From the NCBI GenBank assembly GCA_016871015.1, contig VFZX01000001.1, positions 1 to 64,000 on the forward strand: a stretch of DNA of 64,000 nt. The letters run 5' to 3'. This DNA is from Acidobacteriota bacterium (lineage in GTDB: Bacteria; Acidobacteriota; Terriglobia; Bryobacterales; Bryobacteraceae). Each line of letters begins with the position of its first letter. The stretch's first letter is position 1. Shown one piece after another: positions 27,330-35,344 of the stretch. The notes beneath the pieces are model-generated. The model was not told the origin of the DNA. It searched no databases and saw only the letters and a program-made list of their open reading frames with translations. A program made the position numbers and the translations under genes.

Positions 27330-28400
27330 ATGCGAACCGCGATCCTTGCAGCCCTGCTGCCCATCACCGCCGCCGCGCTGGAGCGGCCCGGCGTCGAGTA
27401 CAAGATCTTCCAGTTCCCGGCGAATCAGATTCCACGTGTCGACGGGGATCCGTCGGACTGGGCGATGGTCCCGGCCGCCTATTCGATCGGCATGGATCAA
27501 TTGAAGGAAACGCAGAAGGGCTTGGGCACGCGCTACGATCCCAAGGATCTCGACGTCAGCGTCAAGGTCGGCTGGGTGAAGGGACTCAACCGCCTGTACT
27601 TTCTCTATGAGGCGTACGACAACTACTGGGACTTCCGCCTCGCCAACCGCCACAACGACATCTTTGAAGTGGTTGTCGACGGCGACCTCTCGGGCGGGCC
27701 GCTGATCTCCACGATGCATCCCCACCCGGGCATCGACAAGGGCGACGCGTTCTTTGGATTCCACGGGGTCCACGCGCAGAACTACCACATCTTCACGCCC
27801 GCGCCCGATCGCGATTGGGCGTTCGCCTGGGGATGCCAGCCCTGGATCAAGGAGCTTCCGTACGCCAACGCCGCCTACCGGTACAACTTCAACCACGGGG
27901 AGAGCGGCAAGCTGGTGCTCGAATTCTGGATCACGCCGTTTGACTACGCGCCGTTTGAAGGACCGGAACGGGCCGTCGAATCCAAGCTTGTAGAGAACAA
28001 GATCATCGGACTCTCGTGGGCTGTCCTTGACTACGACGATGTGAACAACCCCGACCTGCGCGGATTCTGGAATCTCTCCCATAAGACCACGATGTACGGC
28101 AACGCGTCGGACCTGGTGGCGTTCCGGCTGATGCCACTGGAGCGCAACCTGCGCAAGCCGGTGGAGGCCAACTGGAGCTTCCGGATTGTCGATCTGCACC
28201 GGCGGATCGTCGCGTTCCACGATGAGTCGCTGGGGACGGTGAAGAGCTGGAAGTGGGACTTCGGCGATGGCGCCACGTCCACCGAGCAGCATCCGATCCA
28301 CACGTATCAAAAGGGCGGCGAGTACGTGGTGACGCTTTACGCCGAGGGGCCAGAGGGCAAATCCAAACGGACCAAGATTCGCGACGTGAGCGTGCGGTAA
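27330..28400 (+). CDS. Secreted protein with CBM9-like domain and C-terminal PKD domain
   Basis: A 356-residue protein with a signal peptide (first 16 residues, ending TAAA). Residues about 35-250 resemble a carbohydrate-binding CBM9-like domain (RVDGDPSDW, FEVVVDGDLSGG). Residues about 270-356 are a clear PKD domain (SWKWDFGDGATSTEQHP, HTYQKGGEYVVTLYAEG). No catalytic domain is evident. It may bind polysaccharide at the cell surface or in the periplasm. The gap to the TolC-like gene is 13 bp, but a metal role is not suggested by its sequence. Confidence 0.75.
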   Translation: MRTAILAALLPITAAALERPGVEYKIFQFPANQIPRVDGDPSDWAMVPAAYSIGMDQLKETQKGLGTRYDPKDLDVSVKVGWVKGLNRLYFLYEAYDNYWDFRLANRHNDIFEVVVDGDLSGGPLISTMHPHPGIDKGDAFFGFHGVHAQNYHIFTPAPDRDWAFAWGCQPWIKELPYANAAYRYNFNHGESGKLVLEFWITPFDYAPFEGPERAVESKLVENKIIGLSWAVLDYDDVNNPDLRGFWNLSHKTTMYGNASDLVAFRLMPLERNLRKPVEANWSFRIVDLHRRIVAFHDESLGTVKSWKWDFGDGATSTEQHPIHTYQKGGEYVVTLYAEGPEGKSKRTKIRDVSVR

Positions 28401-28409: not shown

Positions 28410-29489
28410 ATGTTGTGCCGCAGAGCTTTTCTAGCCAGCGCCGCCGGTGCCGCGCTCGCCGGGACCGTCCCGCCCGTGCGTGAGATCCGCCGCGGCGGAA
28501 TGACCTACCGCCAGCTTGGCCATACCGATCTCTATGTTTCGCTGCTCTCGTTCGGATCCCACACGGACCCGCGTTACAAACAGAAGGCGGGCCAGGGCAA
28601 CATCCTGACGCCGGATGGCCAGGCCATGCGCGACCGCCTGATTGCGCGCGCGTTTGACCGCGGCGTCAATATGCTCGACACCTACGAGAGCGAGGGCCAA
28701 TGGGAGCACGCGGCTCGGGTGCTCAAGCCGTACAGGCAAAAGGCGCTCGTCTCGATCTGCCGCCAATTTCCGATGTTTGTCGGCCAGAACATCGACATGG
28801 CCGCGAAGCTCTACGGCCACGTCGACATGTACCGGATCTACATCGGCGATGGCGACGCGGTGACGGCGGCGAACGTGTCCGATTGGGACGCGATGCGGCG
28901 CGCCAAGGAGGCCGGCAAGGTCCGCGCGATCGGAATTTCGACGCATTCGGAGCGGGTCATGATCAGCGCGCTCAAGGAGCTCGAGGGGATCGACTACATC
29001 ATGTTCCCCTACAACTTCATCCATGCGCGCGCCGACTATAGCGAGTTCCTGCCGATGGCCGCCGCGCGCGGCGTGGGCCTGATCGCGATCAAGCCGCTCG
29101 CCGCGGGATCGATCGTCCGGCTCGACCCAAGGGCGAACCAGGCGTTGCGCCCTGAACGCGATTTCGTCCAGCTTTATCACACGCGCTACCGCCCGCTGCC
29201 CCCGTCGGTGGTGCAGGACCTGATCAAAACGCTCGACCGTGTGCCGGACGAATCGCTGTGCCAGGCCGCGCTGCGCTTCGTCTACTCGCGTCCGTTCATG
29301 ACTGCGGCGATGCCAGGAATGTTCGAGGACGAAACGCTCGACAGCAATTGCGCGGCGCTCTCCCGCCACCTGGAGCTGTCGCGGGATGAACGCGCCGCCC
29401 TCGATCTCGCGGGACAGCTCGCTGCCGCCCGTGGCAACGCCTGGCTTCCAAAGCACTATCAATGGCTCGACTCGCGCTGGCGGGCCTGA
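28410..29489 (+). CDS. Exported aldo/keto reductase-like oxidoreductase
   Basis: A 359-residue aldo/keto reductase-fold protein with a twin-arginine-type signal (CRRAFLASAAGAALAG), so likely exported folded with its cofactor. Fold markers include MTYRQLGHTDLYVSLLSFGS and the NMLDTYESEGQWE block. In classical enzymes the catalytic Asp and Tyr are spaced D-T-A-x-x-Y; here Tyr92 follows Asp90 by only two residues. Activity may be altered, or another Tyr may serve. Its last 28 nt overlap the multiheme/SUMF1-like gene in another frame, so the two are probably coupled. Confidence 0.85.
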   Translation: MLCRRAFLASAAGAALAGTVPPVREIRRGGMTYRQLGHTDLYVSLLSFGSHTDPRYKQKAGQGNILTPDGQAMRDRLIARAFDRGVNMLDTYESEGQWEHAARVLKPYRQKALVSICRQFPMFVGQNIDMAAKLYGHVDMYRIYIGDGDAVTAANVSDWDAMRRAKEAGKVRAIGISTHSERVMISALKELEGIDYIMFPYNFIHARADYSEFLPMAAARGVGLIAIKPLAAGSIVRLDPRANQALRPERDFVQLYHTRYRPLPPSVVQDLIKTLDRVPDESLCQAALRFVYSRPFMTAAMPGMFEDETLDSNCAALSRHLELSRDERAALDLAGQLAAARGNAWLPKHYQWLDSRWRA

Positions 29490-30703
29490 TCCTGGTCCAT
29501 GCGGCAGCGGCGCAACAGCCGTTCCGCGACGCCGGGGTGTGCGCGCGATGCCACGTGGTCCAGGTGATTGAGTGGTCGTCTTCGCGGCACACCAAGCCCG
29601 GCATCAATTGCCAGAGCTGCCACGGACCGAGCGCCGGACACGTTGCCAACGAGCGCAATCAGGTGGCACCAGACCGCCTTCCGCGCGCGGCCGCAATCGC
29701 CGGGCTGTGCTCCACATGCCACACCGCGGGTTGCCCGAAGACCAAGCAGGCCGCGCAGTGTCAGAACTGCCATCACACGCACGCCCTCACCGATCCGAAC
29801 GCGAAACTCGCACCGCTCGACTTGGGGGACCAGGCGCGGCTCGCGGACTTCGAAAGGCACCGCGCGGCGGGGGAGCGCCACGTGGCAGCGGGCGGCTGGC
29901 AGTCCGCGCGCGACTCGTTCGCTGCCGCCTTGGCTGTGATTCCGGAGCATCGCCAGGTCAAGGCGAGGTTGCGCATGACAGAGCGGCGGCTGCGGTTCCC
30001 CGTCGCCGGCACGGAACCGGTTCCAGGCCAGTATCATGCCGCAACCGGACTCCCGTTGCGCATCCGCGCCCGCGGATTCGATCTTGAGCTCGCGCTCGTT
30101 CCGGGCGGTGACATTGAAATCGGATCGGAAGGCTTCCGCTCGAGCCATCCGGTCCATACTGTTGCGGTGGCACCGTTCTATTTGGGCTTGACGGAGATCA
30201 CGCAGCGCCAATGGACAGTTCTGGATCCTGCCAATCCCAGCACGCACGCCGGGCCCACACTGCCAGTCCATAACGTGTCCTGGAACGGCGCCCGCGGCTG
30301 GATCGCGCGCCTGAACCAGCGCACAAGCGCCGCGTTCCGGCTTCCCACCGAAGCCGAGTGGGAAACTGCCGCCGGACCACCACCTCCAGATCTATCGCTC
30401 GCCGCATGGTTCCGGACTGGCGCGGAGCTTGCGCCCCACCCTGTGGGTGGCAAGCAGCCCAACCCGCTGGGACTCTTCGACATGTCCGGCAACGTGGCCG
30501 AATGGTGTTCGCCGTTGATGCGGCCGTACCCGTACTCGGCTGTCGATGGCCGCGAGGATCCGGCCGCCGAAGGGCTTCGTGTGATTCGCGGTGGCAGCTA
30601 CGCCGATCCCCCCGAGCTGCTCCACCCGGCCCTGCGCCACGCCGACCGGCCGGGACGCCAGAACCCCTGGAACGGCTTCCGCGTGGCGATCTCCGTTCCC
30701 TGA
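29462..30703 (+). CDS. Tetraheme cytochrome c fused to a SUMF1/FGE-like domain
   Basis: A 413-residue secreted protein (signal MARLALAGLILVHAAAAQ). Four CxxCH motifs stand at residues 27-31, 50-54, 83-87 and 100-104 (CARCH, CQSCH, CSTCH, CQNCH). A TPR-like helix pair follows at about 137-170 (GGWQSARDSFAAALAVIP). Residues about 205-411 are a formylglycine-generating-enzyme-type fold (LPTEAEWE at 294-301, GNVAEWC at 343-349, VIRGGSY). The paired cysteines of true FGE are not both present (Cys349 only), so sulfatase activation is unlikely; a binding or redox-partner role is more plausible. It starts 28 nt inside the preceding AKR gene. The domain combination is unusual. Confidence 0.88.
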   Translation: MARLALAGLILVHAAAAQQPFRDAGVCARCHVVQVIEWSSSRHTKPGINCQSCHGPSAGHVANERNQVAPDRLPRAAAIAGLCSTCHTAGCPKTKQAAQCQNCHHTHALTDPNAKLAPLDLGDQARLADFERHRAAGERHVAAGGWQSARDSFAAALAVIPEHRQVKARLRMTERRLRFPVAGTEPVPGQYHAATGLPLRIRARGFDLELALVPGGDIEIGSEGFRSSHPVHTVAVAPFYLGLTEITQRQWTVLDPANPSTHAGPTLPVHNVSWNGARGWIARLNQRTSAAFRLPTEAEWETAAGPPPPDLSLAAWFRTGAELAPHPVGGKQPNPLGLFDMSGNVAEWCSPLMRPYPYSAVDGREDPAAEGLRVIRGGSYADPPELLHPALRHADRPGRQNPWNGFRVAISVP

Positions 30704-30707
30704 TCCG

Positions 30708-30713
30708 TATAAT
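30708..30713 (+). promoter_or_regulatory. -10 box TATAAT before the ABC gene set
   Basis: A perfect TATAAT lies just after the stop of the SUMF1-like gene and 26 nt before the ABC ATPase ATG at 30740. No matching -35 was found at 16-18 bp spacing. Confidence 0.35.
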
Positions 30714-30739
30714 TGAATTGTTCCCCAAAATTCGATTCC

Positions 30740-31471
30740 ATGGACTCGCAAGCGATGATCGAGGCCGTTGGCCTCTGTAAGTTTTATGGAGATTTCGCCG
30801 CCGTTCGAGACGTAAGCTTTTCGGTCCCGCGCGGGCAGGTCTGCGCATTTCTTGGACCCAACGGCGCCGGCAAATCGACCACAATGAAGCTGCTCACGGG
30901 TTACGTGTCGCCGAGCAAGGGATCCGCGCGGATCGCCGGCTTCGACGTTGCTGCTGACCAGCGCCGCAGCGCCCGCCACCTCGGCTATCTGCCCGAGAAC
31001 GGTCCGCTCTATCCCGATATGACTCCGCTTAGCCTGCTCCGTTTCTTCGGCGAGGCGCGCGGATTATCCGGCTCACGGCTCAGCGGGCGGATTGACGCGG
31101 TGGTCGCGCAGTGCTTCCTCCACGACGTACTGGAAAAGGGCATCAGCAAGCTCTCCAAGGGTTACCGCCAGCGTGTCGGCATGGCTCAAGTCCTGCTCCA
31201 TGAACCGGACGTGCTGATCATGGACGAGCCGACCACGGGACTCGACCCGAACCAGATCCGCGAGGTCCGCAACCTCATCCGGACTCTCGGCGAGACCAAA
31301 ACCATCCTGCTCTCCACTCACATCCTGCAGGAGGTGGAAGCCGTGGCCGGGCGCGTGTTGATGATCAACGAGGGACGCCTGGTGTTCGATGGCCCGCCAT
31401 CGGGCCTCCTGGAACACGGCGAGACGCTCGACCTGGCGTTTCACAATCTGACGGGAGCCGCCAATGCCTGA
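30740..31471 (+). CDS. ABC transporter ATP-binding protein, gliding-motility (GldA) type
   Basis: The start is placed at 30740 (MDSQAMIEAVGLCKFYGDF), nine codons after an earlier in-frame ATG at 30713 that overlaps the -10 box. The 243-residue ATPase has Walker A GPNGAGKST (39-47), signature LSKGYRQR (137-144), Walker B VLIMDEP (157-163) and switch His in STHILQEVE. It is followed, with an 8-nt overlap, by a fused GldF-GldG permease and then a DUF4340 protein. That gene order is the GldA/GldFG auxiliary ABC module. The exported substrate of such modules is not known for most bacteria. Confidence 0.92.
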   Translation: MDSQAMIEAVGLCKFYGDFAAVRDVSFSVPRGQVCAFLGPNGAGKSTTMKLLTGYVSPSKGSARIAGFDVAADQRRSARHLGYLPENGPLYPDMTPLSLLRFFGEARGLSGSRLSGRIDAVVAQCFLHDVLEKGISKLSKGYRQRVGMAQVLLHEPDVLIMDEPTTGLDPNQIREVRNLIRTLGETKTILLSTHILQEVEAVAGRVLMINEGRLVFDGPPSGLLEHGETLDLAFHNLTGAANA

Positions 31472-34079
31472 TTTCCGCGTGATCCTGGCTGTTTTCAAGC
31501 GCGAGTTCTTTTCTTATTTCGGGTCGCCGACCGGATATGTCTTCATCACTCTGTTCGTGTTCCTGAGCGCGGTGGCCGCGTTTTGGCAGGAGCGCTTCTT
31601 CCTCAACAATCTGGCGAACCTCGATCAACTGAACCAGTACTTTCCGTATTTGCTGGTGTTCCTGATCCCCTCGATCACGATGGGATTGTGGGCCGACGAG
31701 CAGCGCCAGGGGACCGAGGAACTGCTCCTCACCCTGCCTGCGTCAGCAGTTGAGCTGCTCGCGGGAAAATATCTCGCCGGACTCGGGATCTACACTGTTG
31801 CGCTGGTGTTCTCATTGAGCCACGTGGTCGTGTTGTATTGGCTGGGCAGCCCGGACACCGGAATGCTCGTGTCCACCTACCTGGGCTACTGGTTGATGGG
31901 CGCGGCGCTGCTGCCGTTGGGACTGCTCGCCTCGCAGATCACGGCCAACCTCACGGTCGCGTTCATCCTTGGCGCGTTCTTCTGCGCGATTCCGGTGTTC
32001 GCGCGCCATGCCGGGTCCATCATCAGTGGACGCGCGCAGCGGCTTGCCGAGCAACTGTCGATCGCGGACCGCTTCCGTGACCTCGCCTCCGGGGTGGTCA
32101 CCAGCTCGACCATTCTCTACTTCGTGCTGCTCGCCGCGGCGGTGCTCTATCTTTGCGTGAAGCTGGTGAGCCGGCGGCGCTGGAGCCAGCCGCACCTGGG
32201 CAAGCACTACGTATTCCGGACCCTGTGCCTGCTCGCCGCCTTCGCGGCCTTGACGCTGATCCTGTCCCGCAAGGGTGCGCGGATCGATGTCACCAGTGAG
32301 CAAGTCCACTCGCTCTCGCCGGAGACGCGCAAGCTGATCGAGTCGATCGATCCGAAGAAGCCTGTGTCCATTCAGGCCTACCTGAGCCCCGAGGTCCCGC
32401 GATCCTACCTTCCGGCGCGCAACAACGTGATCACCTTTCTGCGCGAGTTCGCCGCCGTGGGCCGCGAGCGTGTCAACGTCCGCATCACCGAGACGATCAA
32501 GTATTCACCCGAGGCGCGCGAAGCCCGCGAACGCTACGGCATCAATCCGTTCCGCGTTCCAGCGACCGAAGAAAGCGCGTCGACCGTCAACGAGATCTTC
32601 ATGGGGCTGGTCTTCACCTCCGGCGGCGAGGAGTTCATCATCCCCGCGTTCGACCGTGGCCTGCCTGCTGAATACGAGTTGATGCGCTCCATCCGCGTCG
32701 TCTCGCGCGCGCAACGGCGCAAGGTCGGCATCCTCGATACCGGGGCGCGGATGTTCGGCGGATTCGATTTCCAATCCAGGCGCCAGACCAACGAGTGGTC
32801 GATCGTGGCGGAGCTGAAGAAGCAGTACGACGTGGCCCAGGTCATGCCCGATTCCGAGTATCCGCAGGACTTGAGCGTGCTCGTCGCCGCGCTTCCGTAC
32901 ACGTTGAACGCGGCACAGCTCGACCGCCTGGTTGGCTACGCGAAAAAAGGCAAGCCGCTGCTCCTGCTGGTGGACCCCTTCCCGGCGTTCAACCTCAACC
33001 TGTCGCCCGCGGGCGCGGCGCAGGATCCGACGAATCCCACACCGCCGCCGCAGTTCACCAGCGTCGCGCCGTTGATGAACGTGCTCGGCGTCGACTGGGA
33101 CCAGAGCCGCATCGTGTGGGACACCTACAATCCGCATCCGCAATTGAGATCGCTGCAACCGGAAATCGTGTTCATCGGCAAGGGCAGCCAATCAAAGATG
33201 CCGTTCCAGACCGCGGAACCGATGACGGCAGGGTTGCAGGAAGTGGTGCTCATGTTTCCCGGCCAGATCAAGGAGCGGTCCGGCGCGAAGACCAAGTTCG
33301 TTCCGTTGCTTCAAACGGGACCCGCTGCGGGTACGATGCGCTGGGATCAACTCGTGCAGCGCACGATGTTTGGTACGCAAGTCGTGACGGGGCTTCCGCA
33401 CAGGCCCACCAATCAAAGCTACGTCACCGCGGCGCGCGTCACCGGATCCGGCGCCGAGCCCGTTCAGGCAGTGGTGATCGCCGACGCCGACCTGATGGGC
33501 GAGGAGTTCTTCGAGATCCGCAAGCGCGGAGTCGAAAACCTGAACCTCGACAACGTCACGTTTGTCTTGAACGCGATTGATGATCTTGCCGGAGACCGGA
33601 GCTTTATCGCTCTCCGTTCTCGGCGTCCGAAACATCGCACGTTGGAGGCGCTCGAAGCGCGCACCAGGACCTTCGAGCAACAGCGCGACCAAGAGGCGCA
33701 GAACGCCGCGGTGCTGGCCGAAAAGCGGCTCCAGGACGCGCAGGCCCGGCTGGACCGTGCCGTCGCCGAAATCCGGTCGCGCGGAGATCTCGACGAGCAA
33801 GCCAAGCAGATCATGATCTCGAACGTCGAGGCCGCGGAGAACCGGCGGCTCCAGGTGGCGCGCACCAACATCGAAGAAGAGCGCCAGAAGCAGTTGGAAG
33901 ACGCGCGGTCATCGATGGAGTCGGCGATTCGGGGAATCCAGAGCACGATCAAGCTGCTTGCCGTGACGCTGCCGCCGATTCCCGCGTTTGTCCTGTTCAT
34001 TCTCATGTCGATCCGCAAGGTGGCGCGCGAGCGTTCGCGGATCTCCGCAAGCCGCTTGTTGACCAAGGAGGCCGCATGA
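31464..34079 (+). CDS. Fused ABC-2 permease and GldG-like auxiliary protein
   Basis: An 871-residue membrane protein. Residues 1-240 form a GldF-type ABC-2 permease with about six transmembrane helices (LAVFKREFFSYFGSPTGYVF, QRQGTEELLLTLPASAVELL). A further helix near 258 begins the GldG-like periplasmic part (IDVTSEQVHSLSPETRKLIE). A coiled coil covers about 715-815 (LEARTRTFEQQRDQEAQ), and a last transmembrane helix lies near 825-850. GldF and GldG are separate proteins in Bacteroidetes; here one frame carries both. It overlaps the ATPase gene by 8 nt and the DUF4340 gene by 4 nt, so the three are translationally coupled. Confidence 0.9.
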   Translation: MPDFRVILAVFKREFFSYFGSPTGYVFITLFVFLSAVAAFWQERFFLNNLANLDQLNQYFPYLLVFLIPSITMGLWADEQRQGTEELLLTLPASAVELLAGKYLAGLGIYTVALVFSLSHVVVLYWLGSPDTGMLVSTYLGYWLMGAALLPLGLLASQITANLTVAFILGAFFCAIPVFARHAGSIISGRAQRLAEQLSIADRFRDLASGVVTSSTILYFVLLAAAVLYLCVKLVSRRRWSQPHLGKHYVFRTLCLLAAFAALTLILSRKGARIDVTSEQVHSLSPETRKLIESIDPKKPVSIQAYLSPEVPRSYLPARNNVITFLREFAAVGRERVNVRITETIKYSPEAREARERYGINPFRVPATEESASTVNEIFMGLVFTSGGEEFIIPAFDRGLPAEYELMRSIRVVSRAQRRKVGILDTGARMFGGFDFQSRRQTNEWSIVAELKKQYDVAQVMPDSEYPQDLSVLVAALPYTLNAAQLDRLVGYAKKGKPLLLLVDPFPAFNLNLSPAGAAQDPTNPTPPPQFTSVAPLMNVLGVDWDQSRIVWDTYNPHPQLRSLQPEIVFIGKGSQSKMPFQTAEPMTAGLQEVVLMFPGQIKERSGAKTKFVPLLQTGPAAGTMRWDQLVQRTMFGTQVVTGLPHRPTNQSYVTAARVTGSGAEPVQAVVIADADLMGEEFFEIRKRGVENLNLDNVTFVLNAIDDLAGDRSFIALRSRRPKHRTLEALEARTRTFEQQRDQEAQNAAVLAEKRLQDAQARLDRAVAEIRSRGDLDEQAKQIMISNVEAAENRRLQVARTNIEEERQKQLEDARSSMESAIRGIQSTIKLLAVTLPPIPAFVLFILMSIRKVARERSRISASRLLTKEAA

Positions 34080-35344
34080 AGTCCGAGCTGGCCAAGACCG
34101 CGTTGTACGCCGCGGGAGCCGTGGCGCTGGTGGCGGGGGCATCCTATGTCGAGCCCGATGCCTACAAGGCCGAAATCTTTTCCGACACCGGCCAGGAGCT
34201 GTTCCCGGCCTTCCGCGACGTGAACACGGTGAAGGCGATCGAGGTGGTCGACTATGACGAAGCTGAAGCGGCCGCGCGCCCGCTGAAGGTGGAGTTCCGC
34301 AAGAACCGCTGGGTGCTCACCTCGCACAGCGACTATCCGGCCGAGGCGCGCGACCGGCTGGCGAAAACCGCAGCGGCTCTCGTCGACTTGAAGAAGGACT
34401 CCGCCGTATCCGACCGCTGGGAGGACCACGGCAACTACGGTGTGATCGATCCGCTCGATGCCAAGAATCCGAGCTTGACGGGACGCGGCAAGCGCGTTGC
34501 CCTGCGCGATGCCACTGGTGTCACGCTCGCCGAACTGATCCTCGGCAAGCCGTTGAAGGACAAGGCCGGGCTGCGCTATGTCCGGCTGCCGGGCCAGAAG
34601 CGGACCTATTCGGTAAAGACCGACGCCGATCCGTCGGCGCGCTTCGAGGACTGGGTGGAGGCGGACTTGTTGAAGCTCCGCTACGACGACATCATGCGGA
34701 TGACGCTGAACAGCTATCAGATCGACGAGGCCATGGGCCGCCTTGCGAATCAGCGCCGGTTGCAGATGGTGAAAGACAAGGAAAACTGGGACGCCACCGC
34801 CAAGTCGATCGCCTACGCGCTGGGCTCGTTGCGCGTGGCTGGCGCGCGCCCCAAGCCGCCGATGCTCGCCCAGCAGTTGCGCGAGGGCCAGCTCGCATTG
34901 ACGATGGACGTCGTGATGTCGCTCCGCCAGCGCGGCTTCTTCATCACGCCGTTCGGACAGTTGTTGGCCAACGAAGGCGAATTGACGGTGGAGACGGTGA
35001 AGGGCGTGCTGTACACCCTGCGGTTCGGCGAAGTTGTCTCCGACGGGATCTCGACCAAGCAGCGCGAGAACCGCTACGTGTTCATCACCGTGGCTTCACG
35101 GAATCCGGAGAACGAAGCGCTGGCCAAGGCGATGCAGAACAAGTTTGCCGACTGGTACTACGTGATCTCCGGAGCCGATTTCGCGAAGCTTCATCCACAG
35201 TCGGCGGCGGCCAAGGGTGAGCCGCCCGCGCCGAGACTGCCACCGGGATTTCCGCCGTCAGTGATGCGGCAACAGGGTCCTGGCTCGTTGCCGCCCGAAG
35301 GGGTGCCTCCCCAGCCCGCACCGCCTCCGCCTCCGCAGCGGTAG
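34076..35344 (+). CDS. DUF4340 domain protein of the Gld-type ABC module
   Basis: A 422-residue protein anchored by one N-terminal helix (about 8-25), with a periplasmic DUF4340 domain. Family phrases are VEFRKNRWVLTSHSDYPAEA, LAKTAAALVDLKKD and ADLLKLRYDDIMRM. The last about 45 residues are Pro-rich (GFPPSVMRQQGPG, PQPAPPPPPQR) and probably disordered. DUF4340 proteins are habitual partners of GldG-like ABC components; their molecular role is not established. It overlaps the permease gene by 4 nt (ATGA). The stop is inside the first of two copies of CCGCAGCGGTAGCA. Confidence 0.88.
   Translation: MKSELAKTALYAAGAVALVAGASYVEPDAYKAEIFSDTGQELFPAFRDVNTVKAIEVVDYDEAEAAARPLKVEFRKNRWVLTSHSDYPAEARDRLAKTAAALVDLKKDSAVSDRWEDHGNYGVIDPLDAKNPSLTGRGKRVALRDATGVTLAELILGKPLKDKAGLRYVRLPGQKRTYSVKTDADPSARFEDWVEADLLKLRYDDIMRMTLNSYQIDEAMGRLANQRRLQMVKDKENWDATAKSIAYALGSLRVAGARPKPPMLAQQLREGQLALTMDVVMSLRQRGFFITPFGQLLANEGELTVETVKGVLYTLRFGEVVSDGISTKQRENRYVFITVASRNPENEALAKAMQNKFADWYYVISGADFAKLHPQSAAAKGEPPAPRLPPGFPPSVMRQQGPGSLPPEGVPPQPAPPPPPQR

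Follow-up and report, generated by a model that had tools for sequence, protein, structure and literature searches.

A conserved tetraheme cytochrome c fused to an FGE-like domain and encoded next to an exported aldo-keto reductase-like protein in Bryobacterales

Introduction

Domains with the fold of the formylglycine-generating enzyme (FGE, SUMF1) that lack the FGE cysteines are very common, and most of them have no known role, save a few such as PvdO and EgtB/OvoA. Another protein of this fold, TvpA of T. denticola, is the target of a diversity-generating retroelement and displays a variable ligand surface. The final oxidation of dihydropyoverdine, which takes place in the periplasm, requires PvdO; the purified protein was inactive and had no detectable cofactor, and PvdO is always found with PvdP and is suspected to need electron-transport partners (PMC6206403).

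A stretch of 64,000 nucleotides from an Acidobacteriota bacterium of the order Bryobacterales (hereafter the window) was analysed here, in which an earlier note had described a gene joining a tetraheme cytochrome c to a domain of the FGE type. A published description of such a tetraheme/FGE fusion was not found in the literature searched, where most subscription papers were missing. The analysis showed that the fusion is real and conserved and that it is biochemically uncharacterised. Its near-obligate, remodelled partner, an aldo-keto reductase (AKR)-like protein, is the point that the earlier note had overlooked.

Results

Architecture, distribution and selection of the fusion gene

The product of the fusion gene comprises, from the N-terminus, an export leader, four CxxCH motifs, a TPR-like helical linker, and an FGE-fold domain at the C-terminus (Table 1). 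The leader is of the Sec type, covers approximately residues 1-18 and ends in AAAAQ, as judged by eye, and a hydrophobic leader was also seen by eye in the fusion members with a complete 5' end. The presence of four CxxCH motifs and an FGE-type fold in one gene, as previously described, was confirmed, since all four motifs were invariant in the 33 aligned fusions and the match to PF03781 (FGE-sulfatase; residues 211-409, E = 1e-33) was far above the cut-off. The ORF coordinates also agreed with the 28-nt overlap that had been recorded between the start of the fusion ORF and the 3' end of the exported AKR gene. Both genes belong to a tight same-strand run encoding a multicopper oxidase, an outer-membrane efflux protein, a PKD protein, the AKR-like protein, and the fusion.

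Table 1. Features of the fusion gene and of the two genes upstream of it in the window.
Feature	Coordinates	Strand	Remarks
Exported protein with C-terminal PKD domain	27330..28400	+	Precedes the pair in the window and in the contigs of 12 relatives
Tat-type exported AKR-like protein	28410..29489	+	Constant partner, encoded upstream; Asp90 and Tyr92 retained; Lys position Cys117, His position Tyr144
Tetraheme cytochrome c / TPR-like linker / FGE-like domain fusion	29462..30703	+	413 aa; full length conserved in ~30 genomes
Four CxxCH heme c motifs	29540..29773	+	C27-H31, C50-H54, C83-H87, C100-H104; from the alignment
TPR-like helical linker, residues 121-178	29822..29995	+	Three helices, pLDDT > 90; least conserved part
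FGE-like (SUMF1) domain, PF03781	30092..30688	+	Lacks the catalytic Cys pair; invariant Asp382 in place of Cys1

A six-frame search detected the fusion at E <= 1e-40 in 31 of the 257 genomes of the order, nearly all of the matches being full-length. The relatives showed 44-57% identity in the alignment and represented 14-15 genera of two families, and both of the other searched genomes of the window's own genus (G023 and G088) carried the gene. The same domain order, for which the earlier note had proposed a search across genomes, was thereby shown to occur in some 30 genomes from two families. No full-length fusion was detected outside the order when 349 genomes of the class and 396 of the phylum were sampled. 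An all-phyla contig scan by exact peptide 8-mers, which is not exhaustive and missed fusions found by the six-frame search, returned FGE-domain matches only.

Comparison of close relatives gave dN/dS values of 0.02-0.16 (cytochrome), 0.03-0.08 (AKR), 0.06-0.31 (FGE part), and 0.14-0.90 (linker). The fusion domains are under purifying selection, and of the two halves of the fusion the FGE part varies more. The divergence of the cytochrome correlated with that of the AKR (r ~0.65, equal-length bootstraps), and the divergence of either correlated with that of the FGE part at ~0.35; this weaker correlation may be explained by the faster and noisier evolution of the FGE part, and shared ancestry alone also gives a divergence correlation. 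One fusion copy (G189:C149:25553-26860; L122 / L155) contained a single in-frame TGA and is a pseudogene or a sequencing error, because its close relatives are intact.

Cytochrome part and helical linker

An export signal and multiple CxxCH motifs mark the N-terminal part as a multiheme c-type cytochrome, and the invariance of the motifs in the 33 aligned members indicates that they did not arise by chance. The scores for the c7/c3 families PF14522 (23.3 bits against a cut-off of 24.8) and PF14537 (18 against 25 bits) were both under the gathering cut-off, and weak matches to these models were obtained in 30 and 28 of the 33 members, respectively. Besides the four proximal histidines, the only invariant histidines of the cytochrome part in the 33 fusions were H43, H60, and H107, the codon of the last falling just beyond position 29773, where the CxxCH range ends; H105 was replaced by D, N, or S in six members. 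Because just three extra histidines are invariant, at most three hemes can have an invariant distal histidine inside the cytochrome domain. The alignment suggests that one heme may be without a distal ligand from the protein, this fourth heme being open or ligated by another residue or by a partner. The AlphaFold2 model of the cytochrome part, built without heme, had pLDDT values mostly below 60, a poor result that is expected because heme was absent from the prediction.

The helices of the linker spanned residues 121-143, 146-159, and 164-178 in the AlphaFold2 model. They resemble those of TPR proteins, as the earlier description of a "TPR-like pair" implied, but the segment is a short three-helix linker rather than a pair, and Pfam TPR models matched a minority of the members, with at most seven of 33 matched by any one model. 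In five of the 33 members (L152, L161, L162, L163, and L164) the linker was missing or shortened. Both observations indicate that it serves as a spacer and is not a core element of the protein.

FGE-like domain

AlphaFold2 gave a confident model (pLDDT > 90) of the FGE-like domain, in which the FGE fold is present together with the core motifs. The top fold match was TvpA (2y3c), with a Z score of 28.4 and an rmsd of 2.0 for 212 residues. PvdO (5hha) followed with a Z score of 26.6 (rmsd 2.4, 218 residues), then PorK (Z 24) and genuine FGE structures (Z ~22, rmsd ~2.6 over ~200 residues), and the nearest solved folds thus include ligand-binding and oxidoreductase proteins. The scores stayed below the family cut-offs for PvdO (39.3 against 500 bits), for the sulfoxide synthases EgtB (52 against 360 bits) and OvoA (N-terminal part; 15.8 against 400 bits), and for GldK/PorK of the T9SS (63.7 against 350 bits).

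The copper-binding Cys pair of FGE (CxxxxC after RGGS) was absent in all 33 members. In the alignment to the S. coelicolor FGE (6muj), RGGSYLCHDSYC lay opposite RGGSYADPPEL and a gap, with Asp382, invariant in the 33 fusions, at the position of Cys1 and the gap at that of Cys2. The catalytic pair had previously been read as incomplete, with one cysteine retained. The pair is indeed missing, but both of its cysteines are gone, and the sole cysteine of the domain, C349 in the motif AEWC (Thr in six of 33 members), occupies a different site. The domain is therefore not a copper FGE, because both catalytic cysteines are absent and the first is replaced by Asp382. The source genome contained 27 PF03781 matches. 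Of the 23 FGE-type domains compared over the motif region, 22 were without the Cys pair, an approximate count, as this region was incomplete in a few of the 23; the loss of the pair is therefore no special feature of the fusion.

AKR-like partner protein

The AKR barrel was clearly recognised in the partner protein (PF00248, 64.9 bits against a cut-off of 24), which matched the fold of L-galactose dehydrogenase with a Z score of 27, and a twin-arginine leader of the Tat type (RRxFL) was seen by eye in most members. When the sequence was aligned to 4xk2, Asp90 and Tyr92 corresponded to the Asp and Tyr of the catalytic tetrad, the Tyr being aligned across a short gap, and the complete Asp-Tyr-Lys-His tetrad was not found. 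The position that we take to be that of the catalytic Lys is occupied by C, A, or F in all 31 members (Cys117 in the window, Ala in eight members, and Phe in L146, an assignment that depends on the alignment, since a Lys lies one residue before the tetrad position in the sequence ATKF). The presumed position of the tetrad His is Tyr144, with His in eight members and Val in one (Y or V in 23 of 31). Likewise, an invariant Pro200 takes the place of the Gln presumed to contact the nicotinamide, and I/M227 that of the presumed stacking aromatic residue.

Residues H51, D53, D90, Y92, R142, H179, N202, H205, and K228 were invariant in all 31 members, and most of the invariant pocket residues are located at or just after the C-terminal strand ends of the predicted model. 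As assigned by profile alignment to one solved structure (4xk2) and by invariant columns, the predicted set of pocket residues appears to differ from that usual for NADPH enzymes. The pocket looks remodelled under selection rather than decayed. Glucose-fructose oxidoreductase is Tat-exported in the folded state with NADP already bound, and by analogy the AKR-like protein may also be exported folded with NADP bound.

Conservation of the gene pair and its neighbourhood

The fusion neighbourhoods of 35 relatives were compared. Two of the contigs begin at the fusion, and in all 33 contigs holding upstream DNA an AKR-like gene was found directly 5' of the fusion on the same strand, usually overlapping it or within ~40 nt. 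The AKR gene occurred in 31 of the 257 genomes of the order, the same number as the fusion, and the mismatches between the two sets of genomes consisted of contig ends or of diverged fusions still adjacent to the AKR gene. Extra copies of the fusion came as extra pairs (three in G057 and two in G054). The exception was a second AKR copy in G026 (L173:6156-7259), an AKR-like paralogue 62% identical to the AKR of the window; no cytochrome-FGE gene adjoins this copy, and its genome contains a normal pair besides. The AKR gene, which had been treated as a mere overlapping neighbour of the fusion, is instead its constant and catalytically remodelled partner.

No other gene was conserved next to the fusion across the group. 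The N-terminal part of the upstream PKD protein looked CBM9/DOMON-like by eye only, and no solved structural relative of this part was found. A gene for a SelA-like PLP protein of the Tat type was recognised by eye upstream of the PKD-AKR-fusion set in L150 and L167, and SelA-like PLP protein genes, again by eye, were present elsewhere in the neighbourhoods of L141 and L147. The region directly downstream of the fusion (30713-35344) encodes an ABC ATPase, a GldF/GldG-like fused permease/auxiliary protein, and a DUF4340 protein. A functional link with these downstream genes, which the GldK-like score had prompted, was rejected because they are not conserved beside the fusion in relatives, and a link with the genes further upstream, for the multicopper oxidase and the outer-membrane efflux protein, was rejected on the same grounds.

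Discussion

Since the fusion is almost always located directly behind the AKR-like gene and both products are exported, the two proteins probably constitute a redox pair outside the cell membrane. More specifically, we propose, with a probability of roughly 45%, that the fusion is a periplasmic tetraheme c-type cytochrome with an FGE-like binding domain and acts as the dedicated redox partner of the AKR-like protein. The two proteins would meet in the periplasm, where the AKR-like barrel would bind or convert a small molecule in its conserved pocket and the FGE-like domain would hold the substrate or a partner. In place of NADP(H), the four hemes would carry the electrons, which would come from or go to the respiratory chain. 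The two genes form a compact unit suited to expression, and reduction of the hemes could give a direct signal in a search for the substrate.

A doubtful but substantial alternative is a binding or sensing platform, in which the FGE-like module, with its C-type-lectin fold, binds a glycan, a metal, or a surface, the hemes connect it to extracellular electron transfer or signal the redox state, and the AKR-like protein is a binding pseudo-enzyme. The fold is common to the variable or binding proteins TvpA, TaqVP, and Mtd and to PorK, the gene for an exported PKD-containing protein precedes the pair in the window and in 12 relatives, and the AKR tetrad is partly lost, all of which would suit such a role. 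However, the invariance of the AKR pocket positions, which have not decayed, argues for continuing chemistry. Moreover, the fusion gene encodes no signalling domain, and the AKR-like gene is alone in being conserved beside it.

It is unlikely that the FGE-like domain is itself the catalyst, acting in the periplasm as a PvdO-type oxidase without cofactor and passing electrons to its own hemes, with the AKR-like protein only delivering or releasing the substrate. PvdO is among the closest folds, and a covalently attached tetraheme domain would supply the acceptor for an oxidation of this type. On the other hand, the score was far below the PvdO cut-off, the top fold match was the variable ligand-display protein TvpA, and the higher variability of the FGE part fits binding better than catalysis. 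This alternative follows from the PvdO precedent but has less support than a redox pair centred on the AKR-like protein. Quite unlikely as well is a bolder proposal, namely that the AKR barrel gave up NADPH and swaps electrons with the dedicated tetraheme cytochrome, while the fused Cys-less FGE domain is a cofactor-free, PvdO-like oxidase or a substrate-presenting module. If the AKR-like barrel does work without NADPH, a member of a large enzyme superfamily would have changed its electron carrier, which is uncommon.

That the fusion is an ordinary sulfatase-maturation enzyme with an accessory cytochrome is very improbable. The strong PF03781 match and the approximately 100 sulfatase matches in the source genome would be consistent with this role, but no catalytic cysteine of FGE was found in any of the 33 members, and an FGE of the source genome (G000) with a CxxxxC pair (RGGSYLCHKSYC; L176), the only one among the 23 domains compared, is encoded at C4:3600-4445 and adjoins a sulfatase gene at C4:4512-5435. 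Sulfatase maturation by the fusion was therefore ruled out, and the proposal of the earlier note that the domain does not modify sulfatases held. The chance that a frameshift, chimera, or assembly error joined a cytochrome gene to an FGE-like gene is negligible, even in a draft genome of 720 contigs, since the fusion occurs under purifying selection in ~30 genomes of 14-15 genera and two families, is present in close relatives, from all of which the earlier note had considered that it might be absent, and continues there in one open frame through residues 110-200, where an error had been suspected.

Comparison with known systems

The domain of the fusion shares with FGE/SUMF1 (S. coelicolor 6muj/2q17) the fold and the frame motifs RLPTEAEWE, GNVxEW, and RGGSY; unlike FGE, it lacks both copper-binding cysteines and is joined to a tetraheme cytochrome. 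PvdO (5hha) is, like the fusion domain, a periplasmic FGE fold outside sulfatase maturation, but it has no heme domain and belongs to a siderophore context. The closest fold, TvpA (2y3c; 31% identity over 212 residues), also differs from the fusion in having no heme.

The cytochrome part resembles the tetraheme c7/c3, small tetraheme, and DmsE/NrfH-like cytochromes in its four CxxCH motifs with interleaved histidines and in its weak profile matches. It differs in that its scores remained below the family cut-offs, and bis-His ligation may not extend to all four hemes, as only three further histidines are invariant. The partner protein has the barrel of the aldo-keto reductases (4xk2 and the L-galactose dehydrogenase 7smi; Z 25-27) and keeps the Asp and Tyr of the tetrad. 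Unlike these enzymes, it carries a Tat-type leader, the Lys position is changed in all members and the His position in most, and the positions of nicotinamide contact are replaced.

In other proteins, too, a single chain carries c-type heme motifs together with an FGE-like domain that lacks the Cys pair. A PSCyt1-FGE fusion is encoded in the same genome (G000 C19:34610-35875; L185, L211). Among 41 genomes searched, 20 contained this fusion or a relative, the source genome being one of them, and the PSCyt1-FGE gene is flanked, as judged by eye, by Gfo/Idh/MocA-like and ApbE-like genes. In a protein from an Akkermansiaceae MAG (L098:3622-6807), two CxxCH motifs occur together with an FGE-like domain and the middle domain of hydrazine synthase alpha (HZS_alpha). 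Both differ from the fusion described here in having one or two hemes and in belonging to unrelated cytochrome families, and PSCyt1-FGE adjoins a gene of the Gfo/Idh/MocA type, whereas the tetraheme fusion adjoins an AKR gene. Because such proteins occur in the same genome and in the Akkermansiaceae MAG, the tetraheme fusion is a variation on a recurring theme: the combination of c-type heme with an FGE-like domain is already known, and the tetraheme-TPR-FGE protein with an AKR-like partner is a new form of it.
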